Below are positions 2,710 through 55,265 of a stretch of 64,000 nt of DNA, in pieces. The stretch is from Acidobacteriaceae bacterium (GTDB lineage: Bacteria > Acidobacteriota > Terriglobia > Terriglobales > Acidobacteriaceae): positions 18,874 to 82,873 of the forward strand of contig JANYKL010000078.1 of NCBI GenBank assembly GCA_025361625.1. Reading direction: 5' to 3'. Below the pieces are notes generated by a model. The model ran no database searches. It worked only from the letters and a program-made list of their open reading frames with translations, and was not told the DNA's origin. Both the position numbers and the translations under genes were made by a program. Numbering within the stretch: the first letter of the stretch is position 1; every line of letters starts with the position of its first letter.

Positions 2710-3591
2710 ATGAAGATTGAGAAGCTTTTGAAGCGCTATCGAATTGAAAGCGGAAAAGACTTCCGGCTCAAGGATTATGATCCGGGCGATACCCACGGGT
2801 TAAAGTCCGAATTCAAGTCGCAGGCAAAGCTTTTGCTCGCCGATGGAGTGCAAAAACTAAGCACACTGCAAGACATGTTTGCCGCCCAGGACCGCCGGGC
2901 GCTCCTCATTATCTTTCAGGCGCTTGACGCAGCCGGCAAAGATGGCACCATTAAGCACGTCATGTCTGGCGTAAATCCGGAGGGCGTGGATGTGTATTCC
3001 TTCAAAACGCCCTCGAGCGAAGAACTGAATCACGATTTTCTTTGGAGGAGCGCTCGCCTCTTGCCGGCAAGAGGAAAGATCGGCATCTTTAATCGCTCTT
3101 ATTACGAAGAGATGCTTATCGTGCGTGTCCATCCGCAGATACTAGAGAACGAGAAGCTCCCAAAAGAATTGATTACCAAACATATCTGGCAAGAGCGCTT
3201 TGAAGATGTCAATTCTTTTGAACGCTATCTTGCGCGCAATGGAATCGTGGTGCTCAAGTTTTTTCTGCATCTCTCGAAAAAAGAACAGAAGAAACGATTC
3301 ATGGAGCGCCTTGATAATCCAAAAAAGAACTGGAAATTTTCTTCCGCCGACGTGAGGGAGCGCGAGTGTTGGGGCGACTATCAGACTGCTTATGAAGATG
3401 TCATCCAGAACACGGCAACCAAACACGCGCCCTGGTATGTAGTTCCGGCAGACAATAAGTGGTTTGCACGGCTCATCGTCTCGCAGGCCATTGTGGACAC
3501 GCTCGAAAGTTTCAACCTAGCCTATCCCAAGGTAAGCGGAGCCGCTAAGGCAGACCTCGTCAAGGCACGCCAGACACTGGAGAACGAATAA
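2710..3591 (+). CDS. polyphosphate kinase 2 (PPK2) family protein
   Basis: LLIIFQALDAAGKDGTIKHVMSGVNPEGVDVYSFKTPSSEELNHDFLWR...GKIGIFNRSYYEEMLIVRVHP: PPK2 motifs. Confidence 0.92.
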   Translation: MKIEKLLKRYRIESGKDFRLKDYDPGDTHGLKSEFKSQAKLLLADGVQKLSTLQDMFAAQDRRALLIIFQALDAAGKDGTIKHVMSGVNPEGVDVYSFKTPSSEELNHDFLWRSARLLPARGKIGIFNRSYYEEMLIVRVHPQILENEKLPKELITKHIWQERFEDVNSFERYLARNGIVVLKFFLHLSKKEQKKRFMERLDNPKKNWKFSSADVRERECWGDYQTAYEDVIQNTATKHAPWYVVPADNKWFARLIVSQAIVDTLESFNLAYPKVSGAAKADLVKARQTLENE

Positions 3592-3712
3592 CGTGTAACG
3601 AGCGGATTAAAAAATAAAAAGTAACGTAGTGCAGTAAAGAATAACGACGGACGCAGTAACGAATAACGCAGTACCAATTAGCGACTAACGAATTAATGCA
3701 GTAACGGGCGAG
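3583..3712. repeat. degenerate tandem repeat around gcagtaacgaataac, starting at the PPK2 stop codon
   Basis: aacgaataacg at 3583-3593 (contains the PPK2 stop) recurs exactly at 3658-3668; related units at gcagtaaagaataac, gcagtaccaatta, gcagtaacggg. Confidence 0.7.
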
Positions 3713-3717
3713 TCCGC

Positions 3718-4344
3718 CTACTTCAGAACTATCGGCAAAGGCTGATCGTACGGCTGGATCGAAACCGTGAGAGACTTTCTCCGGTCAAATTCCTCTTTCG
3801 TCATCTTGAAACTGACAATGATCGTAGCTTTTTGTTCCGCTCCCGGCAGCATTTTACTCTCTGGAGCGAGCGCCGGTTCGGCACTCTCCTTAAGCGCCGG
3901 AAAAGCCTGGAAGTAACGATCAAGATCGACCACCGACGCCGCTTCATCTTCGTTGATCTTTCCCTGGGAGGTCGTAAGCTGGGCTTTCAACGTATGAACC
4001 CACAACGGCTTTTCCCCCGTATTTCGCAGCGTGAAAGTCACGGCCGCCAAAACGATGTTCTGTCCGGGCACATCCACCGCCTGAACAAAGTGAATCGCTC
4101 CCGCGCCCTGCGGTTTTGCCCGCTCCTTGAAAGACACAATACCGACTATGACTAAAATTCCGATAATGCAGGCCAAGACAATTCGGGCCGGCGGAAGTGT
4201 CCGCTTGGCCGTGCCAAATTCTTCTCCAATGCGGAATTCGGTCGCAGGCTCGGCAGTTGGCGTTCTGGCGACATCAGACGCCAGATCACACGGCGGCGAC
4301 GGCACCGTCGAGTCGGCTTCGTCGTTGCTATGCTCTTCGGGCAT
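3718..4344 (-). CDS. hypothetical protein with one predicted transmembrane segment near the N-terminus
   Basis: MPEEHSNDEADS...ARIVLACIIGILVIVGIVSF...AAVTFTLRNTGEKPLWVHTLKAQL; long ORF, start chosen at the internal MPEE. Confidence 0.65.
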   Translation of the reverse strand: MPEEHSNDEADSTVPSPPCDLASDVARTPTAEPATEFRIGEEFGTAKRTLPPARIVLACIIGILVIVGIVSFKERAKPQGAGAIHFVQAVDVPGQNIVLAAVTFTLRNTGEKPLWVHTLKAQLTTSQGKINEDEAASVVDLDRYFQAFPALKESAEPALAPESKMLPGAEQKATIIVSFKMTKEEFDRRKSLTVSIQPYDQPLPIVLK

Positions 4345-4557
4345 TCGGCAATTGTAGTTGACGCCCAAGCCTCAAGAGGCTCGATACTCCATTTTGCCCT
4401 CGCAGAAGCGAGCGCCGATCGCAAGCTCTTTTGGAACTTTCCGAGAGCAGAATCCCGGCGATACTTTAATAGCTTTCCTGCAGGCTTTATAATTCCATCG
4501 TCTGCTGCCCGACGCACAATCTATGGCCCTCATCTTTATTACTGCCGTCGTGACCTT

Positions 4558-5313
4558 TTGAAGCTTCGCCCAGGAGTTGAAGTTTCCAGCCAATCCGACA
4601 TCGGCTGTGCGCGCCTCAATAATGAGGATTCTTTTGGCTACTGGGAATCCGATGACGATAAAGATTTCGCGCGCAAGGGGCGATTGGCGGTTGTGGCCGA
4701 TGGCATGGGCGGCTACGAAGGCGGGCAAGAAGCGAGCCGGCTGGCGGTAGATAATGTTGTCGAGGTCTATAAAGAGTTCGACGGCGGACCTCAAGAAGCC
4801 CTCGTCTCCGGACTTCAAACTGCCCACGAAGCCATCCGTAAACATAGCTTTGAACACCCAGAACTGCACGGAATGGGAACCACTTGCACCGCGGCGGCGA
4901 TCGTGAACTTGCAACTTTTTTTTGTTCACGTCGGTGACACGCGCCTATACCTCATCCGCGACGGCGAAATGATTCGTGTCACTCGTGACCACTCCTACGT
5001 CGGGCGTTTGGTCGAGGCCGGAATGATCACTCCCGAGCAGGCGGAAGTCCATCCGCAACGCAATGTTCTGACGTCTGCCGTCGGCACGAATCCTGACTTG
5101 GTGATGGACGCATCCGAGGCCCCCACCCCGCTGCAATCTGGCGACGTGGTCATGCTTTGCAGCGATGGACTTTGGGGGCTCGTGCGGGATGGCGAAATGC
5201 TGAATGCTTTAAAAAATAAGGACGTTGAGAAAGCTGGGCGCGCCTTGATCGATCTCGCGCGTCAACGCGGTGGCCCCGATAATATTACGGTGCAGATTCT
5301 CCGCCTGCACTGA
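4558..5313 (+). CDS. PP2C-family serine/threonine protein phosphatase (Stp1-like)
   Basis: SDIGCARLNNEDSFG...VVADGMGGYEGGQEASRLAVD...HVGDTRLYLIRDGEMIRVTRDHS...LCSDGLWGLV...GGPDNITVQIL; TTG start preferred over track start 4330. Confidence 0.92.
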   Translation: MKLRPGVEVSSQSDIGCARLNNEDSFGYWESDDDKDFARKGRLAVVADGMGGYEGGQEASRLAVDNVVEVYKEFDGGPQEALVSGLQTAHEAIRKHSFEHPELHGMGTTCTAAAIVNLQLFFVHVGDTRLYLIRDGEMIRVTRDHSYVGRLVEAGMITPEQAEVHPQRNVLTSAVGTNPDLVMDASEAPTPLQSGDVVMLCSDGLWGLVRDGEMLNALKNKDVEKAGRALIDLARQRGGPDNITVQILRLH

Positions 5314-5321: not shown

Positions 5322-5377
5322 CTGGTCTAACAAAGCTGGTCCAACAATGCTGATCCAGCGATTCTGATCCAGAATCG
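5322..5377. repeat. 4 x 14-bp degenerate tandem repeat downstream of the PP2C gene
   Basis: ctggtctaacaaag|ctggtccaacaatg|ctgatccagcgatt|ctgatccagaatcg. Confidence 0.9.
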
Positions 5378-17791: not shown

Positions 17792-17908
17792 AGGATTGTC
17801 CTGACTGTCGTCCTGATATCGATGATTTGAAAACCTGAAATGATTTCAATCTTATTTGCGCCGAAGGCTTAGATTTTTAAGCGCCCCGGTGATGGTTCTG
17901 AATGATCG

Positions 17909-17947
17909 CCCCCGTCGTCGCTCCCGTCACTCGCTCCCGTCACTAGC
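17909..17947. repeat. 3 x 13-bp degenerate tandem repeat spanning the stop of the YgfZ-like gene
   Basis: Minus strand GCTAGTGACGGGA | GCGAGTGACGGGA | GCGACGACGGG; the second unit contains the TGA stop (..S D G S E *). Confidence 0.8.
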
Positions 17948-18985
17948 TCGAATGACGGGGAGGGATGCCACCGTCAATTTCGCCGCTCCAGCAACCAATT
18001 CCTTGCCCGCCGCTTCACGCCGAAGGTACCCGAGCGCCACGCTGCGATCTCCGTCAGCAAAAGGCAAGACCGCGCAGCTTGTCACTTCGCCGACTTGCTT
18101 CTCTCCGGCCACAATCTTCGTCCCTGCCTCCGGTAACGGTCCAGAGACTTCAAACGCCCCGAACTGACGATGCACCGCTCCTCGAGACCGAATTCGTTCC
18201 ACAATTTCTTGCCCCAGATAGCAGCCCTTCGTGAAACTCAGCGCGCGATTCTGCCCGGTCTCTTGTGGCAGATCGCGATCGCGAATGTCGACTCCGAATT
18301 GAGGGATGCCTCGAGAAATACGAAAAGCGTTAAGAGCTTCCGCACTCACGGGCAGTCCACACTGCCGTCCGAGTTCCTGCCAAAGTTGATCGCGATGTTC
18401 ATGTTCTATCCAAACTCGCCACGAGTCGCCCAATTCTTCTTCCGAACGAACGACGGTAATTGGAATCTCGCGCCACCGCGTCTCGACAAATTGCAAACCC
18501 GTAAACTCAGGAACGACGATGCCGGAGCCCTCTAGAACTTCTCTCGCCTTCGAACCCGTCAAACCAATGGATGAGAGCAACTCAGTAAGGTCGGTAATCT
18601 CCACGTCGTCCGCAATGATGTAGCGATCGAACAACTGAAGAACTTTTTCTCGTTGCCCGCTTTCGGTCTCAACCAGCAGAGATTCGCCGCGTTGAAATGC
18701 GTAAAGATCGGCCTGAATCCGGCCCTGAGCGTTGAGTACAAAAGAATAGACACCTTGATTCCTGGCGAGATCACGAACGTTGTTCGAGATCATTCCGTTG
18801 AGCCAGCGCACCCGGTCCCCGCCGGTAATGGCTAGCTTGGCCTGTCCGCTCAGATCGTAAATCGCGCACCCCGAAAGCAAGGCCGCAAACTCCACGCGCG
18901 TCGATTCGCCTAAGCCAGCGGGCGTTGCGCTATCGTTAAAATTGGCGTCCGCGGACGCCGCAACAGAGGTCATAGGCTCACCCAT
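17927..18985 (-). CDS. ygfZ: YgfZ/GcvT-like folate-binding protein
   Basis: KLAITGGDRVRWLNGMISNNVRDL...FTKGCYLGQEIVERIRSRGAVHRQF: K-G-C-Y-x-G-Q-E signature. Confidence 0.92.
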   Translation of the reverse strand: MGEPMTSVAASADANFNDSATPAGLGESTRVEFAALLSGCAIYDLSGQAKLAITGGDRVRWLNGMISNNVRDLARNQGVYSFVLNAQGRIQADLYAFQRGESLLVETESGQREKVLQLFDRYIIADDVEITDLTELLSSIGLTGSKAREVLEGSGIVVPEFTGLQFVETRWREIPITVVRSEEELGDSWRVWIEHEHRDQLWQELGRQCGLPVSAEALNAFRISRGIPQFGVDIRDRDLPQETGQNRALSFTKGCYLGQEIVERIRSRGAVHRQFGAFEVSGPLPEAGTKIVAGEKQVGEVTSCAVLPFADGDRSVALGYLRREAAGKELVAGAAKLTVASLPVIRASDGSE

Positions 18986-19030
18986 GATTATATCGAAGTG
19001 ACAATATGGACATGACTATATCGACGTGAC
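18983..19030. repeat. 28-bp imperfect direct repeat including the ygfZ start codon
   Basis: catgattatatcgaagtgac (18983) vs catgactatatcgacgtgac (19011), 18/20 identical. Confidence 0.75.
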
Positions 19031-19194: not shown

Positions 19195-20280
19195 GTGGCC
19201 GCTCTTAAAAAGATTGCCGCGATTCCGGGCGATGGCATCGGGCAAGAAGTCATTCCGCAAGCGCTTAAGGTCGTGCAAGCGACCGGAGCGGCAATTGAGT
19301 TCACCCAATTCGATTGGGGCGCCGATCGCTTCCTCGCCGACTCGACCACCGTCCCAACGGATGGTTTCACCATGCTGGCGCGCGATTTCGAGGCCATTCT
19401 CGTCGGCGCTTTTGGGGACCCCCGCATCGCTTCGAATATTCATGCCAAGGAAATCCTCTTGGGCATGCGCACCAAGATGGACCTTTTTGCCAACGTCCGA
19501 CCCGTGCGTTTGATGGATGAATCGCTGTGTCCCCTGAAATCCGTGAAGCCGGAAGATCTGGACTTCACCGTCATCCGCGAAAATACCGAGGGTGTGTACG
19601 GCGATTCCGGCGGAGTGTTCAAGCTGGGAACTCCAGACGAAGTTGCCATCCAGGAGGACATCAACACCCGAAAAGGAGTGGAGCGAATCATTCGTTATGC
19701 CTTCGAATATTGTTCGAACAGCAAGAAAATGAATGGTTCGCCGCGGCGTCGTGTGCTGATGTGTGACAAGTCGAACGCAATGACTCACGCCGGCGGATTG
19801 TGGCAGCGAACCTTTAAAGACGTCGCCCGCGATTTTCCGAAGATTGAGACCCAACACATGTACGTCGACGCCTTGTGCATGCAAATGGTGCGAGATCCGC
19901 GCAACTTTGACGTAATTGTGACCAATAATATGTTTGGCGACATCATCACCGATCTTGCTGCCGGCCTTCAAGGTGGGCTGGGAGTAGCGGCCAGCGGAAA
20001 TCTGCGTCCTCGGCACACTTCCATGTTCGAACCCGTTCACGGTTCGGCCCCGCCGATCGCCGGCAAGAACGTGGCGAATCCACTTGGAGCAATCTTGACC
20101 GCAGCCATGATGTTGGCGCACCTCGGTCTCGACCAACCCGCCCGCAAAATCGAATCGGCCGTGCTTGCCGCCGTGCGCGAAAAAAAGACTACCGCGGACA
20201 TCGGCGGCACTCTCGGCACCGAGCAAGCCGGAGAGTGGATCGCAAGCAAAGTTTCGACCAGTAAAGATCTCGACTACTAA
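19195..20280 (+). CDS. isocitrate/isopropylmalate/tartrate dehydrogenase family protein
   Basis: IAAIPGDGIGQEVIPQALKVV...DFTVIRENTEGVYGDSGG...DKSNAMTHAGGLWQRTF...IVTNNMFGDIITDLAAGLQGGLGVAASGN; GTG start. Confidence 0.93.
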   Translation: MAALKKIAAIPGDGIGQEVIPQALKVVQATGAAIEFTQFDWGADRFLADSTTVPTDGFTMLARDFEAILVGAFGDPRIASNIHAKEILLGMRTKMDLFANVRPVRLMDESLCPLKSVKPEDLDFTVIRENTEGVYGDSGGVFKLGTPDEVAIQEDINTRKGVERIIRYAFEYCSNSKKMNGSPRRRVLMCDKSNAMTHAGGLWQRTFKDVARDFPKIETQHMYVDALCMQMVRDPRNFDVIVTNNMFGDIITDLAAGLQGGLGVAASGNLRPRHTSMFEPVHGSAPPIAGKNVANPLGAILTAAMMLAHLGLDQPARKIESAVLAAVREKKTTADIGGTLGTEQAGEWIASKVSTSKDLDY

Positions 20281-20298
20281 GCTCGACCACTAAAGATT
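20254..20298. repeat. 3-unit degenerate repeat spanning the dehydrogenase stop codon
   Basis: tcgaccagtaaagatc | tcgactactaagc | tcgaccactaaagatt; the TAA stop is in the middle unit. Confidence 0.75.
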
Positions 20299-22016: not shown

Positions 22017-22880
22017 TTGCAGCAAGCGGAGATAGGAATTATTGGCGGCAGTGGTCTGTATCACATGCCGGGATTCAAGGATCCATACGAGCAACGGCAG
22101 CAAACGCCCTTCGGCGATCCATCTGACTCGTATATTCTGGGAAGCCTCGCCGGACGCAAAGTTGCCTTCCTCGCCCGCCACGCGCGTGGGCACAAGCTCC
22201 TGCCAAGTGAATTAAATTTCCGCGCCAACATTTACGGATTTAAGCAGCTTGGAGTGGAGAGGATCATTTCCGTTTCAGCCGTCGGCTCTCTAAAAGAGGA
22301 GCACAAGCCTCTCGACTTCGTGATCCCCGATCAATTCTTTGACCGCACGCGCCATCGCATTGACACTTTTTTCGGAGACGGGATCGTTGCCCATGTTGGC
22401 TTTGGCGATCCCGTGTGCGGAGAGATGACAAACATTATCAACCAGGCCTGCGCCTCCGCGAACGTCACCGGAAAACTCGGCGGCACCTACGTTTGCATGG
22501 AGGGCCCGCAGTTCTCGACCAAGGCAGAATCCAACGTCTATCGCAGCTGGGGAGCTGATGTCGTTGGCATGACCAACCTGCAGGAAGCGAAATTGGCGCG
22601 CGAAGCGGAGATCTGCTACGCGACCGTTGCCATGGTGACGGACTACGACTGCTGGCATCCGCACCACGACTCCGTAACCGTAGACCAGATAGTCGCGGTG
22701 CTTACCAAAAATGCCGAAAACGCTGCAATGGTTGTGCAGCACTCGGTCGCGGCAATGCCAACTGCCCGATCCTGCAAGTGTGGATCAGCTCTCGCTCACG
22801 CCATTCTTACCGATCCCGCGAAAATTCCATTGGCCACAAAGAATAAGCTCAAGCTGATCTTAGAGAAATATTTGACCTAA
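22017..22880 (+). CDS. mtnP: S-methyl-5'-thioadenosine phosphorylase
   Basis: [15 protein letters not shown]...[42 protein letters not shown]...[59 protein letters not shown] start. Confidence 0.95.
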
Positions 22881-23043
22881 TCATCGCTGCCCGGCAGGGC
22901 GCTGTCTGATTTCGCTATTCGCGATAACGAGTATTGTTAATCAGTATTTTCAATCAGAGTTTTTTCAGTAGTCGGTACTTTGAATCTAGTCTTACTCTTA
23001 CTGCCGACTTACTGCGCCTTACAGCTTTTTATTGCGGAGAATC

Positions 23044-29898: not shown

Positions 29899-30606
29899 GT
29901 GTTCCGCACCATACTCATGCTGCTGCTCTGGGCTGCCGCCCTGCCATTCGCGGCCGTCTTCGGCATTCCCTGGACTTATCTCACCAAAGACATCACCTTC
30001 CTCTATCGCAGCTGCATGCTCGCCGCCTACGCCGGAGTACGACTCGCAGGGATCAGAATAAAAACCATTGGCCTCGAAAAAATTGATCCGGCGCGAACTT
30101 ACATTTTCATGTCGAATCACATCTCAAACCTCGATCCTCCCGTCACCCTGCCCCTCATCCCTCGCCGCACCTCGGTGATGGTGAAAAAAGAATTATTTAA
30201 AGTTCCAATTCTTGGCCCCATCATGAGAATCGGCTCCCTTGTCCCGGTTGATCGCGGTAACCGCGATGCCGGAGTTTCGGCCGTGCGTGAGGCTGTAAAG
30301 ACCATCAGCGGGGGATTGAATATGACGATCTACGTGGAGGGCAAGCGATCCTTCGATGGCAAAATGTTGCCCTTCAAAAAAGGCCCCTTTTACCTCGCGG
30401 AAGAATGTAAAGTCCCAGTCGTCCCCATCACAATCTCCGGAACTCAGGTCGCCATGCCGAAAGCGCGTTTCTCCATTCGCCCCGGGTTAGTGACGGTACA
30501 GTTTCATGATCCGATCGAACCCGTCGACTTTGGCGATCGCGACTGCTTGATGGCGAAGGTGCGTGCGTCGATCAACGCTGGATTGCCCCACGACTTGAGA
30601 GACTGA
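29899..30606 (+). CDS. 1-acyl-sn-glycerol-3-phosphate acyltransferase family protein
   Basis: FMSNHISNLDPPV (HxxxxD variant NHISNLD)...YVEGKRSFDGKMLPFKKGPFYLAEECKVPVVPITISGT; GTG start. Confidence 0.9.
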   Translation: MFRTILMLLLWAAALPFAAVFGIPWTYLTKDITFLYRSCMLAAYAGVRLAGIRIKTIGLEKIDPARTYIFMSNHISNLDPPVTLPLIPRRTSVMVKKELFKVPILGPIMRIGSLVPVDRGNRDAGVSAVREAVKTISGGLNMTIYVEGKRSFDGKMLPFKKGPFYLAEECKVPVVPITISGTQVAMPKARFSIRPGLVTVQFHDPIEPVDFGDRDCLMAKVRASINAGLPHDLRD

Positions 30607-30663
30607 TCGGACTTGAGAGACTAATCGGGCTCGAGAGACTAATCGCGACTTGAAGACTAATCA
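30592..30663. repeat. 4 x 18-bp in-frame tandem repeat, each copy carrying a stop codon
   Basis: gacttgagagactgatcg | gacttgagagactaatcg | ggctcgagagactaatcg | cgacttgaagactaatca = DLRD*S DLRD*S GSRD*S RLED*S in the frame of the acyltransferase. Confidence 0.9.
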
Positions 30664-31813: not shown

Positions 31814-31880
31814 CAGTCTGACCGAACTCAAGTGCTCGAACTTCTAGTGGCTCGAACTATTGCCCGAACTACTGCTCGAA
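31814..31880. repeat. 5-unit degenerate tandem repeat beginning with the last codons and stop of the flanking minus-strand gene
   Basis: Minus strand TTCGAGCAGTAG | TTCGGGCAATAG | TTCGAGCCACTAGAAG | TTCGAGCACTTGAG | TTCGGTCAGACTG. Confidence 0.88.
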
Positions 31881-32348
31881 CAATGTGACTTGGCGGGTGT
31901 CAGGTTGTCCGCCTCTTCGACGGCGGTTCGCTGCTCCGATCACGGCTATGACCACCAGGGAAGATAACGCGTCGCGGGGAACGAAAACGCGCTGGGCGTT
32001 CGAGCGCAGGTCAGGCGGGTTCATCAAAAAACCTTCATCTGGATTTTGTGTGAGATCGTTTGGCAGAATGCCTTCGATCACGTCACTGTCTTTAAATTTC
32101 AAACGGACCCATAGGCCTTCCGTTCGAGGCCGGGTGGTAAAAGTCTTCCGCGTCATCAACTCGCCATCTGAAAACTCACGCACAAAATAGACCGCTTTGA
32201 TCTCATGCAGGTCGATTCCGACTACGTTTCCCGATGTGCTGAGCAACTCAAGTTTGCCTTCGACCACAAAATTAGAAGGAGACACGAAGCCGCTGATCGA
32301 GTCGCGGTCGTGTTTCCGTACAATCACTTTTTTGTGCGTAGAAGGCAT
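31869..32348 (-). CDS. hypothetical protein
   Basis: 160-codon ORF; MPSTHKKVIVRKHDRDSISGFVSPSNFVVEGKLELLSTSGNVVGIDLHEIKAVYFVREF; coherent soluble protein, family not recognised with certainty. Confidence 0.75.
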   Translation of the reverse strand: MPSTHKKVIVRKHDRDSISGFVSPSNFVVEGKLELLSTSGNVVGIDLHEIKAVYFVREFSDGELMTRKTFTTRPRTEGLWVRLKFKDSDVIEGILPNDLTQNPDEGFLMNPPDLRSNAQRVFVPRDALSSLVVIAVIGAANRRRRGGQPDTRQVTLFEQ

Positions 32349-35316: not shown

Positions 35317-35739
35317 ATGCCCCGAACCCGAGTCCTGGTGGTGGACGATCACGATGTTGTCAGATATGGAATTTGCAAACTTCTATCGGACGATCCCGAG
35401 TTGGACGTAATCTGCGAAGCCACCACCGGAGAAGAAGCGGTGGAGAAGGCGAAAGAACATCTACCAGACTTAATCCTCCTCGATATCTCCTTGCCTGGCA
35501 TAAGCGGTCTCGAAGCTGCGTGGCGCATTCGACATATTTCGCCCTCATCCCTCATTCTCTTCGTGAGCCAGCATGATGCGTCCTATGTTGTTAAAAAAGC
35601 CTTGAGCGTAGGCGGGCACGGGTATTTGCTGAAGTCCACGGCGGGTGAAGAACTTATTGAGGCAATACGAACCGTGCTCAGCGGCAAACAGTTTGTGAGC
35701 AAGAGGCTGGCAGGGGAGAGCAGTCCAGAGTTCGCCTGA
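35317..35739 (+). CDS. response regulator, NarL/DegU-type receiver domain only (no HTH output domain)
   Basis: RVLVVDDHDVVRYGICKLLSDDPELDVICEATTGEEAVEKAKEHLPDLILLDISLPGISGLEAAWRI...GGHGYLLKSTAGEELIEAIRTVLSGKQFVSKRLAGES then stop. Confidence 0.88.
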   Translation: MPRTRVLVVDDHDVVRYGICKLLSDDPELDVICEATTGEEAVEKAKEHLPDLILLDISLPGISGLEAAWRIRHISPSSLILFVSQHDASYVVKKALSVGGHGYLLKSTAGEELIEAIRTVLSGKQFVSKRLAGESSPEFA

Positions 35740-35771
35740 CTAGAGTTCGGCCGACCATAGTTTGGCCAATG
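35727..35771. repeat. 3 x 15-bp in-frame tandem repeat beginning at the response-regulator stop
   Basis: agagttcgcctgact | agagttcggccgacc | atagtttggccaatg; in frame GAG TTC GCC TGA CTA GAG TTC GGC CGA CCA TAG TTT GGC CAA TGA. Confidence 0.9.
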
Positions 35772-36470: not shown

Positions 36471-39400
36471 ATGTCTGAATTCGTACATCTCCATCTTCAT
36501 AGTGATTACTCCATGCTCGACGGAGCCTGCGACGTCGAGAAGCTGGTCGAACGTGTCCACGAGCTCCGCATGCCGGCCGTGGCCATGACCGATCACGGGA
36601 ACATTTTTGGCGCGGTGCACTTCGTGAATGCCGCCAACAAAGTAGGCGTGAAGCCGATCGTCGGCTGCGAACTTTACATCTGCAAAAAAGATGACCACGT
36701 CATCACCCGCACTCCTCCCGATGGCGATACCTACAATCACCTGCTCGTCCTGGCCGAAAATGAAGAAGGCTATCGCAATCTCGTAAAGATCACCTCTGAA
36801 GCGTCGCTACACGGCTTCTACTACAAGCCCCGAGTAAGCAAAAAGTTTTTGGCCGATCATTCCAAGGGATTGATAGGGCTTTCCGGTTGCCTTAAAGGCG
36901 AAGTCGCCGAGCGCCTGATGGAAGGGAACTACGACGCGGCCCAATCGGCCGCCGGATTTTATCGCGATCTATTCGGCAAGGATAATTTTTTCCTGGAAAT
37001 TCAAGATCAGGGCCTGGAGATGGAGCACCGCATCCGAGCCGGCCTTTTCAAGCTGGAGCAAGATATCGGCCTCCCCATGGTCGCCACGAACGATAGCCAC
37101 TATCTCTGTGAAGACGACGCGCACGCGCAGGATGTAATGCTCTGCATCCAGACCGGCAAGTCGATTCAAGAAACCAATCGGATGAAGTTCGAAGGCACGC
37201 AGTTTTTCGTCAAGAATGCAGCCGAAATGTTGCGTGTCTTCAAAGACGCGCCCCAGGTGCTCTCGCGGACAATGGGCATTGCCGAGCGTTGCAACATGAA
37301 GCTCGAAAAGCTTCCCACTCCGTTTCCGCACTTCGATGTGCCCGATGGTTTTACCCTCGACAGCTATTTTGAACACGTAACGCGTCAAGGTTTCGCCCGC
37401 CGCATGGAAAATCTGCGCGGTGCCGCCGCGAGCGGCAAGCTGAAACATTCCGTGAGCGAGTATGAACAGCGTTTGGCCCGGGAAATCGACATCATCCAGC
37501 AGATGAAGTTTTCCGGCTATTTCCTGATTGTGTGGGATTTTATTCGCCATGCACGCGAACTGAAGATTCCGGTCGGCCCCGGGCGTGGATCGGCCGCCGG
37601 AGCCGTCGTCGCCTACTCGCTTGGCATCACCGACATCGATCCCCTGCAGCATGAACTTCTGTTTGAGCGCTTCCTTAACCCCGAGCGCATTTCGCTGCCA
37701 GACATCGACATCGATTTCTGCATGAATCGCCGCGGTGAGGTCATCGAGTACGTCACGCGCAAGTACGGTCGAGAGAATGTCGCGCAGATCATCACCTTTG
37801 GCACCATGGCGGCCAAAGCGGCAATCAAAGACGTAGGCCGCGCCATGGACATGCCGTACAGCGACGTAGACCGCATCGCGAAGATGGTGCCGACCACGCT
37901 CAATATAAAACTCAAGGACGCTCTAACCGAGTCGGTCGCGCTGCAAGAGGCTTATCAGAAAGATCCGCAGGTAAAGCAGTTGCTCGATACCGCGCTCAAG
38001 CTCGAGGGTCTTGTGCGTAACTCCGGCGTTCATGCGGCCGGAGTAGTGATTTCACCGCGTCCGTTGATTGAGCTCGTCCCCCTGCACAAGACAAAAAACG
38101 CCGAAATCGTCACCGCCTTCGACATGGTAGCGATCGAAAAGATGGGCCTGCTGAAAATGGATTTCCTCGGGCTCACGACGCTCACCATTCTCGACGATAC
38201 CTTGAAGCTGATCGCGCAGAAGGGAACGACTCTCAATCTCGATGATGTTCCGCTCGAAGATCCCGTGACGTACGAGAAGGTCTTTCACAAGGGGCTGACC
38301 TCGGGCGTCTTCCAGTTTGAATCATCGGGCATGCGCGATGTCTTGCGTCGCTATCAACCCAACTCGATTGAAGATTTAACCGCGCTCAATGCGCTCTACC
38401 GTCCTGGCCCGATTCAGGGAGGAATGATTGACGACTTTATCGAGCGAAAGCACGGGCGCCGCAAGATTGAATACGAACTGCCGCAGCTGAAAGAAATCCT
38501 TGCGGAAACGCTCGGCGTTTTTGTCTACCAGGAACAGGTGATGCAGGCCGCCAACAAACTTGCCGGCTATTCGCTCGGTGAAGCCGATCTGTTGCGCCGT
38601 GCCATGGGCAAAAAGAATGCCGATGAAATGGCGAAGCAGCGCGAACGTTTTGTGCAAGGCGCGACCAAAAATGGCTTCCCCCCAAAGAAAATTGAGAAGA
38701 TTTTCGACCTGATGGCGCAATTTGCCGGGTACGGCTTCAATAAGTCTCACTCCGCCGCATACGCGCTACTGGCCTACCATACCGCGTTTTTAAAAACACA
38801 TCATCCTGTCGACTTCATGGCCGCGCTCCTAACCTCGGTCACCGGAAGCACCGACGACGTCGTGAAGTACATTAACGAATGCCGCGAGATGGGAATTGCT
38901 GTCGAGCCTCCCGACATCAACGTGAGCGACGCAAACTTTACACCGCACGGTACCGCGATTCGCTTCGGCTTGGCGGCCGTGAAAAACGTCGGCGGCAACG
39001 CCATCGAATCCATAGTGGCGGCCCGCAAAAAGCTGGATCGCAATTTCAAATCGTTCTACGAATTCTGTGAGGTGGTTGACCTGCGCCTCCTCAACAAACG
39101 TGTGCTTGAGTCTTTAATCAAAAGCGGCGCGATGGATGGCTTTGGGCGGCGCGCGCAACTGATGCAAGCCCTCGATACGGCAATTGAGCACGCGCAGAAA
39201 ACACAACGCGACGCCGAGTCTGGCCAACACGGCTTATTTGGCGTGTTCGCCGACGAGACCGCCGAGCAGGCCAACGAATCGCTGCCCAACGTTCCCGATT
39301 GGGATGAGCACGTGCGTCTTTCCGCCGAAAAAGAAATACTCGGCTTCTTCATTACCGGCCATCCGATGGAAAAATACAAAGAGAAGCTCACCGACCTGAA

Positions 39401-39953
39401 TGCGATCTCAACGCAGGATATTTGCGCCATGAAACGGTCGACTGCGAAAGATGAGAACATCACGACGGCGGGCTTGATATGCGGCGTGCGCGTAGCGAAG
39501 TCAAGAAAGGGCGACCTCTGGGCCCAAGCGGCTCTTGAAGATATGTCGGGCACCGTCGAGTTGCTGGTTTTTCCAGAAGCCTATCGAAAGCTTGCAGAGA
39601 AGATGAAGTTAGAAGTTCCGGTTTTGATTCGTGGCGGAGTGCGCATCGAAGAGGGCGCCAATCCAAAACTCACCGCCCATGAAATTATCCCGCTCGATGA
39701 GGTCAACGTTCCTCTCCCCCGGGCGCTGCGCATCCGCATTCCTTCTGGAAGCGCAACCGATAGCACCGTCGATGCCCTCCATAACTTGTTCAACGAGCGC
39801 AAGGGTGAAGCCAAAGTGCTCTTCGATGTGGAGCGCGAGGGCGATTTCATGGTCGTCATGGAGGCCCAAGGCTATAATGTGATGCCAGACCGTAATTTCC
39901 TCGGCCGCGTCGAGGAGCTTTGTGGACGAGGCAGCGTCCGGGTGATCCTGTAA
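36471..39953 (+). CDS. dnaE: DNA polymerase III subunit alpha
   Basis: FVHLHLHSDYSMLDGACDVEKLVERV...PVGPGRGSAAGAVVAYSLGITDIDPLQHELLFERFLNPERISLPDIDIDFC...GYGFNKSHSAAYALLAYHTAFLKTHHPVDFMAALLTS. Confidence 0.98.
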   Translation: MSEFVHLHLHSDYSMLDGACDVEKLVERVHELRMPAVAMTDHGNIFGAVHFVNAANKVGVKPIVGCELYICKKDDHVITRTPPDGDTYNHLLVLAENEEGYRNLVKITSEASLHGFYYKPRVSKKFLADHSKGLIGLSGCLKGEVAERLMEGNYDAAQSAAGFYRDLFGKDNFFLEIQDQGLEMEHRIRAGLFKLEQDIGLPMVATNDSHYLCEDDAHAQDVMLCIQTGKSIQETNRMKFEGTQFFVKNAAEMLRVFKDAPQVLSRTMGIAERCNMKLEKLPTPFPHFDVPDGFTLDSYFEHVTRQGFARRMENLRGAAASGKLKHSVSEYEQRLAREIDIIQQMKFSGYFLIVWDFIRHARELKIPVGPGRGSAAGAVVAYSLGITDIDPLQHELLFERFLNPERISLPDIDIDFCMNRRGEVIEYVTRKYGRENVAQIITFGTMAAKAAIKDVGRAMDMPYSDVDRIAKMVPTTLNIKLKDALTESVALQEAYQKDPQVKQLLDTALKLEGLVRNSGVHAAGVVISPRPLIELVPLHKTKNAEIVTAFDMVAIEKMGLLKMDFLGLTTLTILDDTLKLIAQKGTTLNLDDVPLEDPVTYEKVFHKGLTSGVFQFESSGMRDVLRRYQPNSIEDLTALNALYRPGPIQGGMIDDFIERKHGRRKIEYELPQLKEILAETLGVFVYQEQVMQAANKLAGYSLGEADLLRRAMGKKNADEMAKQRERFVQGATKNGFPPKKIEKIFDLMAQFAGYGFNKSHSAAYALLAYHTAFLKTHHPVDFMAALLTSVTGSTDDVVKYINECREMGIAVEPPDINVSDANFTPHGTAIRFGLAAVKNVGGNAIESIVAARKKLDRNFKSFYEFCEVVDLRLLNKRVLESLIKSGAMDGFGRRAQLMQALDTAIEHAQKTQRDAESGQHGLFGVFADETAEQANESLPNVPDWDEHVRLSAEKEILGFFITGHPMEKYKEKLTDLNAISTQDICAMKRSTAKDENITTAGLICGVRVAKSRKGDLWAQAALEDMSGTVELLVFPEAYRKLAEKMKLEVPVLIRGGVRIEEGANPKLTAHEIIPLDEVNVPLPRALRIRIPSGSATDSTVDALHNLFNERKGEAKVLFDVEREGDFMVVMEAQGYNVMPDRNFLGRVEELCGRGSVRVIL

Positions 39954-39988
39954 CCAAATGATTTCGTAAAGCTAAGGTAAAAGCTAAC

Positions 39989-41092
39989 TTGAGACGATCA
40001 AAAGATAAATCTCCCGATCAGGTCAGCGAAGCAATCGAGCAGCCAGAGCATGTCTCGGCCCTTGCCGGAGCGGATCTTATGTTGTCGATGATGGAAGAGC
40101 ATCACCCCAAAAAAAACGGCAACAAGAGGACGGGGAATTCGGGATTAAAAGCTCAGCAGGAACTTGTCAGAATCGAAGCTCAGATTACACGCCTGCAGTC
40201 CATGCAAGGGCAGAGCGGAGACACCCCGCAGCAGATCGAGCGATTGAACCAGCGCGTAAATGATCTGCGCCGCGAAGTCGCCTCCCAACTGAACGCCTGG
40301 GAACGAACGGAATTGGCGCGTCACCCGCAGCGCCCTTACACCCTCGACTATGTCGAACGCATCTTCACCGATTGGAGCGAGATTCACGGCGACCGCGGCT
40401 TTCGAGACGACCCCGCTATCGTCTGCGGAATGGCCCGCTTCCACGGCGAAGAAGTAATCATCGTAGGGCAACAGAAAGCGCGCGACGCCAAGCAACGTAT
40501 TTACCGCAACTTTGGTATGCCGCATCCAGAGGGCTATCGCAAAGCTTTACGCGTGATGAAGATTGCCGAAAAGTTCAAGCGGCCGATCTTTACATTCGTG
40601 GATACCGATGGCGCCTACCCGGGCCTGCACGCCGAAGAGCGCGGCCAGGGAGAAGCCATCGCGCGTAATTTGCTGGAAATGGCACGGCTCGAAGTTCCGA
40701 TTGTCACCACCGTAATCGGCGTAGGCGGTAGCGGCGGAGCGCTCGCCATCGCGGTTGCCGATCGCGTGCTCATGATGGAGAACGCCGTCTACTCGGTCAT
40801 TTCTCCGGAAGGCTGCGCTTCGATTATGTGGCGCGATCCCACCAAAAAAGATCTAGCCGCGGAAGCGATGAAGATCACCGCCAAAGATCTTAGCGCGCTC
40901 GGTTGCATCGACGGCATCGTCCCCGAACCTCCCGGAGGAGCACACACCGATCACGCCCAGGCGGCGGAGTTGCTCAATACAGCTTTGCAGCAGAATCTGG
41001 CTGCCATCAAGCATCTTCCCGCGCCCGAGTTACTCGAAACGCGCTACCGGAAGTTCCGCGATATGGCGCAGTTCTTCGAAGTTGAAGCGTAA
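39989..41092 (+). CDS. accA: acetyl-CoA carboxylase carboxyltransferase subunit alpha
   Basis: AWERTELARHPQRPYTLDYVERIFTDWSEIHGDRGFRDDPAIVCGMARF...FGMPHPEGYRKALRVMKIAEKF...FVDTDGAYPGLHAEERGQGEAIARNL...YSVISPEGCASIMWRD. Confidence 0.97.
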   Translation: MRRSKDKSPDQVSEAIEQPEHVSALAGADLMLSMMEEHHPKKNGNKRTGNSGLKAQQELVRIEAQITRLQSMQGQSGDTPQQIERLNQRVNDLRREVASQLNAWERTELARHPQRPYTLDYVERIFTDWSEIHGDRGFRDDPAIVCGMARFHGEEVIIVGQQKARDAKQRIYRNFGMPHPEGYRKALRVMKIAEKFKRPIFTFVDTDGAYPGLHAEERGQGEAIARNLLEMARLEVPIVTTVIGVGGSGGALAIAVADRVLMMENAVYSVISPEGCASIMWRDPTKKDLAAEAMKITAKDLSALGCIDGIVPEPPGGAHTDHAQAAELLNTALQQNLAAIKHLPAPELLETRYRKFRDMAQFFEVEA

Positions 41093-41098: not shown

Positions 41099-41126
41099 GC
41101 CGCTTGACTCTTGCCGCTTGACTCTT
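41099..41126. repeat. perfect 2 x 14-bp tandem repeat downstream of accA
   Basis: gccgcttgactctt | gccgcttgactctt. Confidence 0.95.
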
Positions 41127-42206: not shown

Positions 42207-42431
42207 GTGGCCGTTAAAAGCATAAAACTCGGACAGGTCTGGCGCCAGGATGAAACCGGACGCGATCACCTCGTCACGAAAGTTTACAGCGAAGTATTTT
42301 CGCAATACGTCGTATTGCGACCCGCCGAAGTTACCGCGCCCGACGCGCCAGTCATCAAAGTTAAGGTCGCGAAAGCAACGGATGGCGTCAGCTTGCCCGG
42401 CTTTAGCTTCACCCAGGATGGGAGCTTTTGA
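42207..42431 (+). CDS. small hypothetical protein (74 aa)
   Basis: GTG start; MAVKSIKLGQVWRQDETGRDHLVTKVYSEVFSQYVVLRPAEV; coherent, non-overlapping, with upstream purine-rich ctaaaggaaaa. Confidence 0.65.
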   Translation: MAVKSIKLGQVWRQDETGRDHLVTKVYSEVFSQYVVLRPAEVTAPDAPVIKVKVAKATDGVSLPGFSFTQDGSF

Positions 42432-42470
42432 CCGCCGGACAATTTCACCATCGCCCCATCGGCGATCTAA

Positions 42471-42501
42471 ATCACGGCAATCTCAATCATGGGCAATCTC
42501 A
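42471..42501. repeat. 15/16-bp imperfect tandem repeat downstream of the small ORF
   Basis: atcacggcaatctca | atcatgggcaatctca. Confidence 0.8.
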
Positions 42502-42555
42502 ATCTATGACTGATCTCCATTTCACGATAGCAGCCTGATCAACTTCGCCATTATT

Positions 42556-42602
42556 TTCGACTTCGACTTCGACTTCGACCGATCACTGATGACCGATGAC
42601 TG
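42556..42602. repeat. 4 x ttcgac followed by 7-bp repeats that contain the dedA start codon
   Basis: ttcgac x4 (42556-42579) then atcactg|atgaccg|atgactg; the last unit holds the dedA ATG. Confidence 0.75.
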
Positions 42603-43225
42603 AAAAAATTCTCACCATCCTGTTTGGTTTTATCAGCGCTCTCATCGCCACTACCGGTTACCTCGGCATCACGCTGCTGATGGCGATTGAGTCGGCATGC
42701 ATTCCGCTTCCCTCGGAACTGATCATGCCCTTCGCCGGATACCTCGTCTACACCGGGAAGATGCACCTGCTCTGGGTGGCGACCGCCGGAGCCATCGGCT
42801 GCAACCTTGGTTCACTCCTCGCTTACGAAATCGGCCATTATGGCGGGCGGCCATTGGTCGAACGCTACGGCCGCTGGATTCTCATGGGCCGCCGCGAACT
42901 CGATTGGGCCGATCACTTCTTTCAGAGCCGTGGAGAACTCGCCATCGTTATCGCACGAATGTTGCCCGTGATCCGCACATTTATCGCGCTCCCCGCCGGT
43001 ATCGCGCGCATGCCTCGAGCTAAATTTCACATCTACACTTTTATCGGATCGTGGCCGTGGTGTTTTGGCCTCGCTTATCTCGGCATGAAACTTGGCGAAA
43101 ACTGGCGCTCTCTCGGCAAGTATTTCCATCAGTTCGACGCCATCATCGGAGCCGTGATTGTCGCCGCCGTTGCCTGGTTTGTCTGGTCGCACTGGCAACA
43201 TCGGCTAGGCGCCAACGAAGGCTAG
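42596..43225 (+). CDS. DedA family membrane protein
   Basis: GYLGITLLMAIESACIPLPSELIMPFAGYLV...GAIGCNLGSLLAYEIGHYGGRPLVERYGRW...ARMLPVIRTFIALPAGIARMPRAKF. Confidence 0.93.
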   Translation: MTEKILTILFGFISALIATTGYLGITLLMAIESACIPLPSELIMPFAGYLVYTGKMHLLWVATAGAIGCNLGSLLAYEIGHYGGRPLVERYGRWILMGRRELDWADHFFQSRGELAIVIARMLPVIRTFIALPAGIARMPRAKFHIYTFIGSWPWCFGLAYLGMKLGENWRSLGKYFHQFDAIIGAVIVAAVAWFVWSHWQHRLGANEG

Positions 43226-44601: not shown

Positions 44602-45879
44602 ATGTTTCAACCAATGCCTTCGCTTTGTCCGGTGCTATCCTTCAGTCGAATGAACGTTGCCTACCTTGAATGCACTCGATGCGGAGATCATCTCTCTCCC
44701 GACCGTCCTCAGAGTATCTGCCCAAAAGATGGTGGAGTGCTTTTTGCGCGCTACGACCTGGATAGTCTCAAAGAAAAATTTCGTACCGCGGATTTAGCGG
44801 GCCGCGTCGCCAGCATGTGGCGTTATGCCGAGGTGCTTCCAAATGTGCAGCCAATCACTCTCGGCGAAGGCTTCACGCCAATGCTGCCGAGCCGCGAATT
44901 TCCAAATGTGTTTATCAAGGATGAAGGGCTGAATCCGACCGGGTCATTCAAGGCCCGGGGCATGTCGGCTGCCGTCAGCATGGCGAAACACTATGGGCTG
45001 AAGAATTTGGCTGCGCCTTCCGCCGGAAACGCCGGTGGCGCTCTCGCAGCCTATGCCGCGGCCGCCTCCATTCAGGCCCATATCTTCATGCCGAAAGACG
45101 TTCCCCTGGCGAACCGCATGGAATGTAACTTCCACGGCGCCCACCTAACCCTCGTCGACGGATTGATCAGCGATTGCGGACGCATGGTTGCCGAACGGAA
45201 AGATAAAGAAGGTTGGTTCGATGTCTCGACTCTTAAAGAGCCACATCGCGTCGAGGGCAAAAAGACGATGGGCTATGAGATAGCCGAGCAATTGAATTGG
45301 AAGCTGCCGCAAGCAATTATTTATCCTACGGGCGGCGGCGTCGGCATGATCGGCATGTGGAAGGCCTTCGATGAAATGCAGCAGCTTGGCTGGATTGGCT
45401 CCGAGCGCCCGAAGATGGTTTCTGTTCAAGCCGCCGGGTGCGCGCCGATCGTCAAGGCCTGGGAAGCAGGGACGTCCTCTTCCGAAATGTGGCCTGATGC
45501 TTCCACGTTTGCAGCCGGTTTGCGCGTTCCAAAAGCCTACGGAGACTATCTGATTCTCGACATCATCAAGAAAAGCCGTGGCATTGCCGTTGCCTCCACA
45601 GACGAAGAAATTCTGCAAGCGACGCGGCACTGGGCAAGCGTTGAGGGAGTCTTCGCTGCTCCTGAAGGCGCAGCCTCTCTTGTCGCCTATCGAAAGTTGC
45701 GCGCCAGCAATTTTCTGAGCGCTGACGACACGGTAGTACTCTTTAACACCGGATCTGCGTACAAGTATCTCGACCTGCTTGAGGCAAAAAAGATCGAGGC
45801 ACACAATATCGAAGAAAATAAGGCGCAGTCAACGCCTCCCGCGTCGCGAAATATCGGCGGTATCATCGGCCCATACTAG
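44602..45879 (+). CDS. thrC: threonine synthase
   Basis: LECTRCGDHLSPDRPQSICPKDGGVLFARYD...FIKDEGLNPTGSFKARGMSAAVSMAKHYGLKNLAAPSAGNAGGALAAYAAAA...IYPTGGGVGMIGMWKAFDE. Confidence 0.94.
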   Translation: MFQPMPSLCPVLSFSRMNVAYLECTRCGDHLSPDRPQSICPKDGGVLFARYDLDSLKEKFRTADLAGRVASMWRYAEVLPNVQPITLGEGFTPMLPSREFPNVFIKDEGLNPTGSFKARGMSAAVSMAKHYGLKNLAAPSAGNAGGALAAYAAAASIQAHIFMPKDVPLANRMECNFHGAHLTLVDGLISDCGRMVAERKDKEGWFDVSTLKEPHRVEGKKTMGYEIAEQLNWKLPQAIIYPTGGGVGMIGMWKAFDEMQQLGWIGSERPKMVSVQAAGCAPIVKAWEAGTSSSEMWPDASTFAAGLRVPKAYGDYLILDIIKKSRGIAVASTDEEILQATRHWASVEGVFAAPEGAASLVAYRKLRASNFLSADDTVVLFNTGSAYKYLDLLEAKKIEAHNIEENKAQSTPPASRNIGGIIGPY

Positions 45880-45906
45880 CCCGTCCGTAAAGTCGGCCCA
45901 TATTAG
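45866..45906. repeat. 27-bp-period in-frame direct repeat of the thrC terminus plus stop
   Basis: tcggcccatactag at 45866 and tcggcccatattag at 45893: I G P Y * ... V G P Y * in the same frame. Confidence 0.85.
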
Positions 45907-45945
45907 TATCGTGTTTAGCGAGATCGTGTCTCGCCGCAGATTCTC

Positions 45946-52622: not shown

Positions 52623-53507
52623 ATGGCCCCTGCCCTCGAAAGCTCACACGGCAAAAAAATCTTCGCTATCATCTCGAAGCCCGACCGTCCCGATCTGAGT
52701 GACGTTCTGCCGCAACTCCAGGAGTGGCTGGAACAGCGGAATTATGCGGTCATAATGGATGAAGAAAGCGCCATTTACTTTCCCGCTGCAAAGCTTGTTC
52801 CCCGCAGTCAGTTGGCCCAGCACTCTCCAGACATCGCACTGGTGCTCGGCGGTGATGGAACGTTGCTCTCTGCGACCCGCGCCGTAGCCGAGGTAGGCAC
52901 CTTAATCCTGGGAGTCAATCTCGGAACGCTAGGATTCATGACTGAGCTCGCCCTACCCGATTTGTATCCGGCTCTCGAAGCCATCGAAAAGAAAAGTTAC
53001 ATTGTCGATGTGCGCTCCATGCTGCGAGGCACGTTGCTTCGCGGGAACGAGACCGTCGCGAGCCACGCCGCGTTGAACGAAGTTGTGATCAGCAAAGGCG
53101 CGATCGCGCGATTGAATCACTTCGAATTATTTGTCGACTCAGAATTTATTTCCAGCTATCGCGCCGATGCGTTGATCGTCGCAACCCCCACCGGCTCGAC
53201 CGCGTATTCGTTGGGGGCTGGCGGACCAATCGTCAGCCCTGACGTTGATGCTCTCGTTCTGACTCCGGTATCTCCCCACGGGTTAACGCATCGTCCCGTG
53301 GTCGTGCAAGACACGGTTGAGATTTCGATTCGAGTCAATACCGGCAAAGAAGAAGCATTTCTCAGCTTTGACGGACAGGTAGGAATGCCGGTTCAAGATG
53401 GCGACGTTGTGCGATGCGTGAAGGCGGAGCACTCCGCCAGGCTTTTACGTTTCAAGAAAACATTCTTCGAAGTACTGGCCACCAAACTCAAATGGGGCGA
53501 GCGTTGA
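52623..53507 (+). CDS. nadK: NAD kinase
   Basis: DIALVLGGDGTLLSATRAVA...ILGVNLGTLGFMTEL...ADALIVATPTGSTAYSLGAGGPIVSPDVDALVLTPVSPHGLTHRPVVV. Confidence 0.96.
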   Translation: MAPALESSHGKKIFAIISKPDRPDLSDVLPQLQEWLEQRNYAVIMDEESAIYFPAAKLVPRSQLAQHSPDIALVLGGDGTLLSATRAVAEVGTLILGVNLGTLGFMTELALPDLYPALEAIEKKSYIVDVRSMLRGTLLRGNETVASHAALNEVVISKGAIARLNHFELFVDSEFISSYRADALIVATPTGSTAYSLGAGGPIVSPDVDALVLTPVSPHGLTHRPVVVQDTVEISIRVNTGKEEAFLSFDGQVGMPVQDGDVVRCVKAEHSARLLRFKKTFFEVLATKLKWGER

Positions 53508-53534
53508 GTCTCATCCTCGAGACAAGGAAAATTC

Positions 53535-55229
53535 ATGAAACGATGTCTAACTCTCTTGTTTTTCGTTGCGATTTCGTTAACAGCGTTTGGCCAACCTAAA
53601 CCGGCGGCGGACCTCATCATTCAGAATGCGCGTGTGTGGACTGTTGACGCTTCGCAACCCGAGGCCGAAGCCGTAGCGATTCTCGGCGAACGCATCGTTG
53701 CAGTGGGCTCGAGCCAGCAAATCCAGAGCTGGAAAGGGACGCATACTTACGTCGTGAATGCGGGCGGCAAGCGGCTGCTGCCTGGCTTTAATGACGCTCA
53801 CGTCCATTTCCTGGACGGGGGGTTACAACTCGACAGCGTTCAACTCAACGATGCAACCAACGCGCAGGAATTTGCTCGACGCATCCGCGAGCGCGCCGCA
53901 AAGACGGCTAAAGGCGAGTGGATGTTGAACGGCGATTGGGACGAGACCAAGTGGACTCCCGCTGAAATGCCGACCAAGGAGCTTATTGATTCATCGACCT
54001 CCGATATTCCCGTTGCCGTCAGCAGATATGACGGTCACATGGTGCTGGCGAATTCTGCCGCGTTGAAAATTGCAGGAATCACTGCGCAGACGCCGGACCC
54101 GGATGGCGGAGTCATCATGCGCGACAAAAACGGCAACCCTACCGGCGGCCTGAAAGATGCCGCGCAAGACATGTTATTTAAAGCTATCCCTGCTCTAAGT
54201 CATGATCCCCGCCGCCACGCGATAGAGCGTGCTCTCGAACACGCCGCTTCAGTGGGCGTGACCAGTGTTCAAAACATGAACCCCGACTATGCGGATATCG
54301 CGATTTACAACGAACTGCTCGATGAAGGGAAACTGACGACGCGCATTTATGCAGCTCCGCTGATCACGCAGGTCGACGATCAGGTGAAGATCGGCATCAA
54401 GCGCGCTTTTGGAAGCTCCTACCTACGCATCGGCGCGTTAAAAGCCTATGCCGATGGCTCGCTTGGTTCGGCGACAGCTTATTTTTTCGAACCCTTTTCT
54501 GACAAGCCGGGCAATCGCGGACTACTTTCGGACGAAATGCATCCTGTCTCGCTCATGCGCGATCGCATGATGCGGGGTGATGATGCGGGACTTCAACTCT
54601 GCACGCACGCCATCGGAGACGCTGGAATATCTGCGATCCTTGATATCTATTCGGAGATCGAAAAGCAGCACGGGGTTCGCGAACGTCGCTGGCGTATCGA
54701 GCACGCGCAGCACATGGCGGCCAAAGATTTTGATCGTTTTTCTAAGCTGAAGGTTATTGCCAGCGTGCAGCCTTATCACGCTATCGATGACGGCCGCTGG
54801 GCCGAGGGTAGAATCGGTCACGACCGCGCGTCTCGTACTTATGCCTTCCGGACTTTTCTCGACCACGGAGTTAGACTGGCGCTGGGTACCGATTGGAGCG
54901 TTGCTCCATTAAACCCCATGCTCACGCTTTACGCAGCAACTACACGAGCCACGCTCGATGGCAAGAACCCCGGCGGATGGTTCCCTGAGCAGAAGCTAAC
55001 CATTCAAGAGGCGATCGAGGCCTACACGATGGGATCGTCATACGCTGAGTTTCAAGAAAAAGAAAAAGGCTCGATTACGCCGGGAAAGCTCGCAGATATG
55101 GTCCTGCTGAGCGACGACGTGCTGAAAATCGACCCTGTAAAAATTCGCGACGTCAAAGTTCTCAAGACGTGGGTCGGAGGCAAGTTGATCTTCGACGCCG
55201 ATGTTTCGCGCCATTCCGCGTCTAACTAG
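53535..55229 (+). CDS. secreted amidohydrolase (YtcJ-like)
   Basis: Signal peptide; PGFNDAHVHFLDGGLQLDSVQL...HAIGDAGISAILDIYSEIEKQHGVRERRWRIEHAQHM...LGTDWSVAPLNPMLTLYAATTRAT. Confidence 0.92.
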   Translation: MKRCLTLLFFVAISLTAFGQPKPAADLIIQNARVWTVDASQPEAEAVAILGERIVAVGSSQQIQSWKGTHTYVVNAGGKRLLPGFNDAHVHFLDGGLQLDSVQLNDATNAQEFARRIRERAAKTAKGEWMLNGDWDETKWTPAEMPTKELIDSSTSDIPVAVSRYDGHMVLANSAALKIAGITAQTPDPDGGVIMRDKNGNPTGGLKDAAQDMLFKAIPALSHDPRRHAIERALEHAASVGVTSVQNMNPDYADIAIYNELLDEGKLTTRIYAAPLITQVDDQVKIGIKRAFGSSYLRIGALKAYADGSLGSATAYFFEPFSDKPGNRGLLSDEMHPVSLMRDRMMRGDDAGLQLCTHAIGDAGISAILDIYSEIEKQHGVRERRWRIEHAQHMAAKDFDRFSKLKVIASVQPYHAIDDGRWAEGRIGHDRASRTYAFRTFLDHGVRLALGTDWSVAPLNPMLTLYAATTRATLDGKNPGGWFPEQKLTIQEAIEAYTMGSSYAEFQEKEKGSITPGKLADMVLLSDDVLKIDPVKIRDVKVLKTWVGGKLIFDADVSRHSASN

Positions 55230-55265
55230 CCGGGCATCTAATTGGCCGAAATCTGACTAGCCGAT
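55218..55265. repeat. 3 x 16-bp tandem repeat spanning the amidohydrolase stop and reaching the next gene's ATG
   Basis: gcgtctaactagccgg | gcatctaattggccga | aatctgactagccgat; in-frame stops TAG, TAA, TGA. Confidence 0.88.

Follow-up and report, generated by a model that had tools for sequence, protein, structure and literature searches.

Short, locus-specific tandem repeats at high density in the intergenic DNA of an Acidobacteriaceae genome

The intergenic DNA of the genome studied here, that of a soil acidobacterium, carries hundreds of short tandem arrays at more than ten times the density found in E. coli, and genome-wide these arrays are intergenic without being anchored on stop codons. 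Taken as a whole, the observations are best explained by short tandem duplication throughout the genome followed by a selection filter, a reading that we consider likely. The window, a stretch of 64,000 nucleotides (G000:C162:18874-82873), is part of a 3.83 Mb draft genome in 196 contigs that is MAG-like in appearance and whose nearest relatives with a name are MAGs from soil and peat in the Acidobacteriaceae/Terriglobia. We compared the window with 1.19 Mb of its own genome (about 31% of one draft, hereafter the genome sample), 0.4 Mb of the congener G016, 0.4 Mb of order-level relatives (two) and 200 kb of E. coli K-12; rates for congeners other than G016 were computed on individual loci and pooled. 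The outside controls are few, and the genomes compared are one per species, the nearest relatives being about 75–80% identical. Genes were called with our own ORF and hexamer caller, which is reliable for stops and approximate for starts. Arrays were called by TRF with score cut-offs of at least 40, 45 or 50 according to the analysis, and individual sites were checked by a direct, ungapped diagonal test against 500 dinucleotide shuffles. The arrays considered in the window are the following.

3560..3690, plus strand: degenerate and irregular array, containing TAACG, that covers the stop of gene 2710-3591 (TRF 3642-3673, period 15; P = 0.016); the weakest class of evidence among the window sites
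5322..5357, plus strand: 14 bp unit in 2.6 copies, lying 9 bp 3' of the stop at 5313 (TRF score 51; P < 0.002)
17906..17949, minus strand: 13 bp unit in 3.5 copies across the stop (17927) of gene 17927-18985, reaching 23 bp into that gene (TRF score 60)
18990..19030, minus strand: 14 bp x 2.9 array immediately 5' of the start of gene 17927-18985 (TRF score 47)
20254..20293, plus strand: 13 bp unit repeated across the stop at 20280, 12 bp into the gene (TRF 20269-20293)
22930..22963, no strand assigned: arrays with 13 bp units inside gap 22880-23029 (TRF), absent from the earlier list of sites and of the same class as those on it
30592..30662, plus strand: 18 bp x 3.9 array at the end of the 29899-30606 gene, which appears to encode a PlsC-like acyltransferase; unit 1 is the gene end including its TGA, and subsequent copies carry an in-frame TAA (TRF score 105)
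31823..31881, minus strand: 12-16 bp arrays over and past the stop of the 31869-32348 gene (TRF 31823-31858 and 31853-31881)
35725..35767, plus strand: 15 bp unit in 2.9 copies across the stop at 35739, which the later copies do not carry (TRF score 51)
41099..41126, plus strand: perfect 14 bp x 2 duplication, 7 bp past the stop at 41092 (TRF 100% match), with zero junction homology (run length equals period)
42457..42504, plus strand: 16 bp x 3.1 array 3' of the stop at 42431 (TRF score 68)
42556..42603, plus strand: four copies of TTCGAC followed by a 14 bp unit in 1.9 copies that runs into the start codon at 42596, hence start-spanning (TRF)
45863..45909, plus strand: 27 bp unit in ~1.7 copies, repeating the gene end with its stop (45879); below the TRF threshold (diagonal test period 27, P < 0.002)
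55218..55265, plus strand: indel-containing array of a 15-16 bp unit across the stop at 55229 (ungapped test weak, P = 0.024); the unit and its indel were seen by eye

A sequence-only reading of the window had named 14 sites at which gene ends or starts coincide with diverged tandem repeats. Eleven of these stand clear of the shuffles in the diagonal test (P ≤ 0.002), and the other three do so weakly (3583, P = 0.016; 10901, P = 0.032; 55218, P = 0.024). TRF arrays lie at or adjoin ten of the named sites (5322, 17906, 18990, 20269, 30592, 31823/31853, 35725, 41099, 42457 and 42577). Units measure about 10–20 bp, with a mode of 12–15 and lag-spectrum peaks at 11–16, and are present in 2–5 copies that are 74–100% alike. 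Among 108 units we found no enriched k-mers and no common motif, in agreement with the earlier claim that the units are locus-specific and do not form a dispersed family.

At a TRF score of at least 45, gaps in the genome sample hold 77 arrays in 170 kb (0.45/kb), compared with a mean of 1.0 after shuffling. Dinucleotide-shuffled intergenic DNA yielded 0.006–0.010 arrays/kb, and E. coli K-12 intergenic DNA yielded 0.034 arrays/kb (1 array in 29 kb, score at least 45). The window, at 0.57 arrays per intergenic kb, is typical of its own genome. With the score lowered to at least 40, the genome sample shows 0.62 arrays/kb in gaps versus 0.10/kb in genes; in the high-GC control Nonomuraea, many arrays fall in coding DNA as well and the intergenic sample is tiny, which makes this control uninformative. 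The 196-contig, MAG-like state of the draft and a probably chimeric contig in a related assembly might suggest that the arrays are an assembly artefact of a metagenome-assembled genome. We regard this as highly improbable, given that the copies have diverged from one another (a point already made in the sequence-only reading, and one with which we agree), that arrays also occur in independently assembled relatives, that lengths inside genes are multiples of three only, and that the E. coli control and the shuffles are low.

Anchoring on gene ends, the central proposal of that reading, did not survive, as placement is uniform once it is conditioned on the gap. Raw array coverage does peak 15–75 bp past stops, at about 5% versus 2–3% upstream of starts, and in codirectional gaps 39 arrays occupy the stop half versus 11 in the start half (P = 9e-5). 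When arrays were randomly re-placed within their own gaps, however, the number observed near the stop was 16 against 14.1 ± 1.8 expected in convergent gaps (P = 0.2) and 14 against 15.7 expected in codirectional gaps (P = 0.8); coverage of convergent gaps is even. Density depends on gap length, with 1.0–1.3 arrays/kb in gaps under 200 bp and 0.16/kb in gaps over 500 bp. The raw peak past stops is thus a consequence of gap geometry and short gaps, combined with exclusion from coding DNA and some avoidance of starts. One result runs counter to this explanation: at a score of at least 50, convergent arrays lie slightly nearer stops than a uniform placement predicts (mean-distance P = 0.008, n = 15). 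Boundary-anchored slippage, in which some machinery favours gene ends (for example at sites of transcription termination or replication-transcription conflict), would account for the raw peak and for the 39:11 excess on the stop side of codirectional gaps. We consider it unlikely, in view of the uniform gap-conditioned placement, the dependence of density on gap length, and the fact that duplications arise in genes too, where those in multiples of three alone survive. Of the boundary-biased slippage suggested earlier, the duplication process is real and the boundary bias is absent.

How stop codons come to be re-copied is illustrated by the 18 arrays that span them. When a duplication runs across a stop, copy one still holds the original stop: the protein stays as it was, and what the extra copies repeat is the gene's final codons together with the stop. 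Intrusion into the gene is accordingly expected to be at most one unit, as found in 16/18 cases, although the remaining 2/18 intrude by more than one unit. Exact duplications inside genes have lengths that are multiples of 3 bp in 18/18 cases, as against 10/28 outside genes (coding versus intergenic, P about 1e-8). The protein ending at 30606 terminates in LPHDLRD, and most orthologues terminate in LPAELRE or similar with the same end residue; this match identifies the first unit as the ancestral gene end. At one congener locus (L209) the stop of the 30606 orthologue has been duplicated independently, with a 13 bp unit, and the repeats found there in other congeners are different again. In congeners the stop orthologous to that at 41092 is followed by no comparable array, and in 19 congeners no 14-bp direct array was seen behind the stop orthologous to that at 5313, where three of the 19 carry inverted heptad (7-bp) repeats.

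Successive in-frame stops had been reported at five sites, and these fared unequally. At 30606, in-frame TAA codons recur at codons 6, 12 and 18 in register with the repeat; at 31869 an in-register TAG occurs at codon 4; and at 45879 the 27 bp period supplies an in-register TAG at codon 9. The case at 55229 is loose, its in-frame stops at codons 4 and 9 arising from a different position in the unit, and the case at 35739 is not sustained, as the next in-frame stops (codons 7 and 11) lie outside the 15 bp register. The copies at 30606, 31869 and 45879 are what selection for fail-safe tandem stop codons would produce, yet genome-wide there is no excess of such stops: the fraction of genes with a secondary stop within 20 codons is 0.527 in frame 0 versus 0.542 and 0.516 in the other frames. 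Nor are periods in multiples of three significantly more common in stop-spanning arrays (9/18) than in purely intergenic ones (36/87). A systematic study of tandem-stop enrichment in eubacteria was likewise negative (PMC6764699), in agreement with our frame-0 count. We therefore reject fail-safe stops, proposed earlier, for this genome, and give that explanation a close to negligible chance of being correct.

A further suggestion was that the arrays mark transcript 3'-end structures. Folding of arrays compared with shuffles gave a mean z of -0.24 and a median of 0.09 (flanks 0.07), indicating no extra structure, and 0/109 arrays in the window's genome have an inverted partner; on these two results we set the suggestion aside for this genome. 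Structures of this type, whether terminators, processing hairpins or relics of hairpin elements, find a parallel in congeners that carry inverted repeats with heptad arms at stops, also behind the stop orthologous to that at 5313. Since fold z is about 0 here, no array has an inverted partner, and 173 kb of intergenic DNA holds no heptad-armed inverted repeats, we judge them very unlikely as the source of the arrays.

The process that we favour, genome-wide duplication followed by selection, would operate as follows. A mutational process would duplicate arbitrary DNA in tandem across the genome in units of about 10–20 bp; some duplications would grow to 3–5 copies, and the copies would later diverge. 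Within coding DNA only duplications in multiples of three would remain, and rarely, while start-proximal DNA would be somewhat avoided and arrays would persist in the remaining gap DNA, mostly 3' of genes. With units in multiples of three, stops in the extra copies would fall in frame. The arrays themselves appear to be neutral. What looked like a gene-end code then becomes a measurable mutational signature of frequent short tandem duplications in intergenic DNA, with a clean record of the selection filter (multiples of three only inside genes, the original stop kept), and array-bearing gaps may be of use in strain typing and in studying sequence gain at gene 3' ends.

We suggest that the initial duplication often arose without microhomology, for instance by misaligned synthesis or by fill-in and joining of staggered ends, and not by classical slippage between pre-existing repeats. 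Two-copy exact intergenic duplications have junction homology of 0–1 bp in 16/21 cases, where a blunt model expects 83%, which speaks against slippage between pre-existing repeats being the only route. As a counter-point, homology of 3–5 bp occurs in 4/21 intergenic (3–4 bp) and 6/17 coding duplications, somewhat above the blunt model, and slippage therefore probably contributes. Near-zero junction homology also fits Ku-dependent end joining, with fill-in of staggered breaks, as the specific cause, as does the presence of Ku in this genome and most relatives and its absence from the control E. coli. Two genomes, G008 (99% complete) and G018 (92%), have no Ku match, and loci L045 and L044, assigned to them respectively by contig coordinates, nonetheless hold non-heptad arrays; Ku as the specific cause is therefore improbable, and as a required factor it is unsupported. 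Missing mismatch repair was also discarded as a cause, MutS being present in the genome.

Our search of the literature on tandem repeats in Acidobacteria turned up nothing specific. Bacterial minisatellites, or VNTRs, are locus-specific direct repeats of ~10–20 bp in 2–5 copies, mostly intergenic and in multiples of three if coding, and the arrays described here resemble them in unit, copy number, intergenic site and coding lengths. With direct tandem units of about 10–60 bp that are locus-specific, the arrays are classed here, from one genome per species, as VNTR-like minisatellites of bacterial intergenic DNA, present at an unusually high density; minisatellite loci are usually far fewer per genome than the 0.45–0.62 per intergenic kb seen here. 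Among published patterns the closest is that of Borg elements, in which tandem repeat units are virtually all unique and repeats in ORFs are all divisible by three, as few of those between genes are; most of these repeats are perfect, A-rich and bordered by partial repeats, and they sometimes begin within an ORF end (PMC9879509). Unique units and coding duplications divisible by three (18/18) are shared with our arrays, but the latter have diverged copies, only a mild AT shift and little homology in their flanks (mostly 0–1 bp), and they reside in a bacterial chromosome. STRRs are heptanucleotide repeats, intergenic and short. The TAACTGA repeats of Beggiatoaceae and cyanobacteria are intergenic and have a fixed 7 bp unit of one sequence (PMC4679880). 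Both kinds resemble our arrays as intergenic short direct repeats, some over stop codons, but periods here are 11–18, no unit is held in common and 7 bp periodicity is not characteristic. GTAG REPs are extragenic palindromes able to supply a stop codon (PMC3733652). As extragenic repeats that supply stops they are similar, a likeness that bears on the congener hairpins; REPs, however, are dispersed palindromic families, and our arrays show no palindromic structure and no dispersal.

Non-heptad arrays occur genus-wide, at 0.376 arrays/kb here, 0.325 in the pooled congener loci and 0.061 in G016 (score at least 50). Congeners additionally carry 7 bp-periodic arrays (lags 7/14/21), many of them paired as inverted repeats; such heptad arrays make up 18/25 in G016 versus 3/109 in the window's genome. 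Among unique heptad-armed inverted repeats in congeners, 13/15 are no more than 10 bp from a stop (P = 5e-5 versus uniform placement), and none was found in 173 kb of intergenic DNA of the window's genome, where at least 10 were expected. The hairpin arms span 18–37 bp and consist of diverged 7 bp units, with locus-specific sequences, many having GGTCTYA-like heptads. Heptad-armed inverted repeats were located in congeners at the following loci.

L042:9864-9973
L045:15430-15487
L048:10228-10311
L049:1520-1600
L050:9870-9971
L053:20022-20091
L215:2215-2272
L229:1389-1486
L231:1391-1496
L136 and L141, both in G016

These hairpins may be terminators, REP-like elements or both; a limited literature search found no description of stop-anchored hairpins with heptad arms, and the class merits follow-up. 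A bolder proposal, which we hold to be doubtful, is that Terriglobia possess a distinct and unusually active 10–20 bp tandem-duplication pathway, largely independent of microhomology, along with stop-anchored heptad hairpins, confined to the congeners, that form or insert behind stops. If true, the two together would amount to a lineage-specific mode of gene 3'-end construction.

Heptad arrays also occur at orthologues of the gene ending at 30606. In L210 and L211 the gene's own stop is the first TAG of the array (TAGTCGTTGGTCGTTAGTCGTTGG), and in L223, L219 and L220 the gene has extra C-terminal codons apparently derived from heptad repeats, e.g. gccagtagccagtag. Separately, locus L245 (G094:C44:48450-50933) comprises 2,484 bp at a contig end that are 100% identical to window positions 38500-40983, while the rest of its contig is 69–81% identical; the switch in identity falls inside dnaE, and the contig is therefore probably chimeric. 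As an exception to the species-specific character of the arrays, a 15 bp array is kept between two congeners (L044:16593-16624 and L045:18672-18703), where it nearly fills the gap between two genes.
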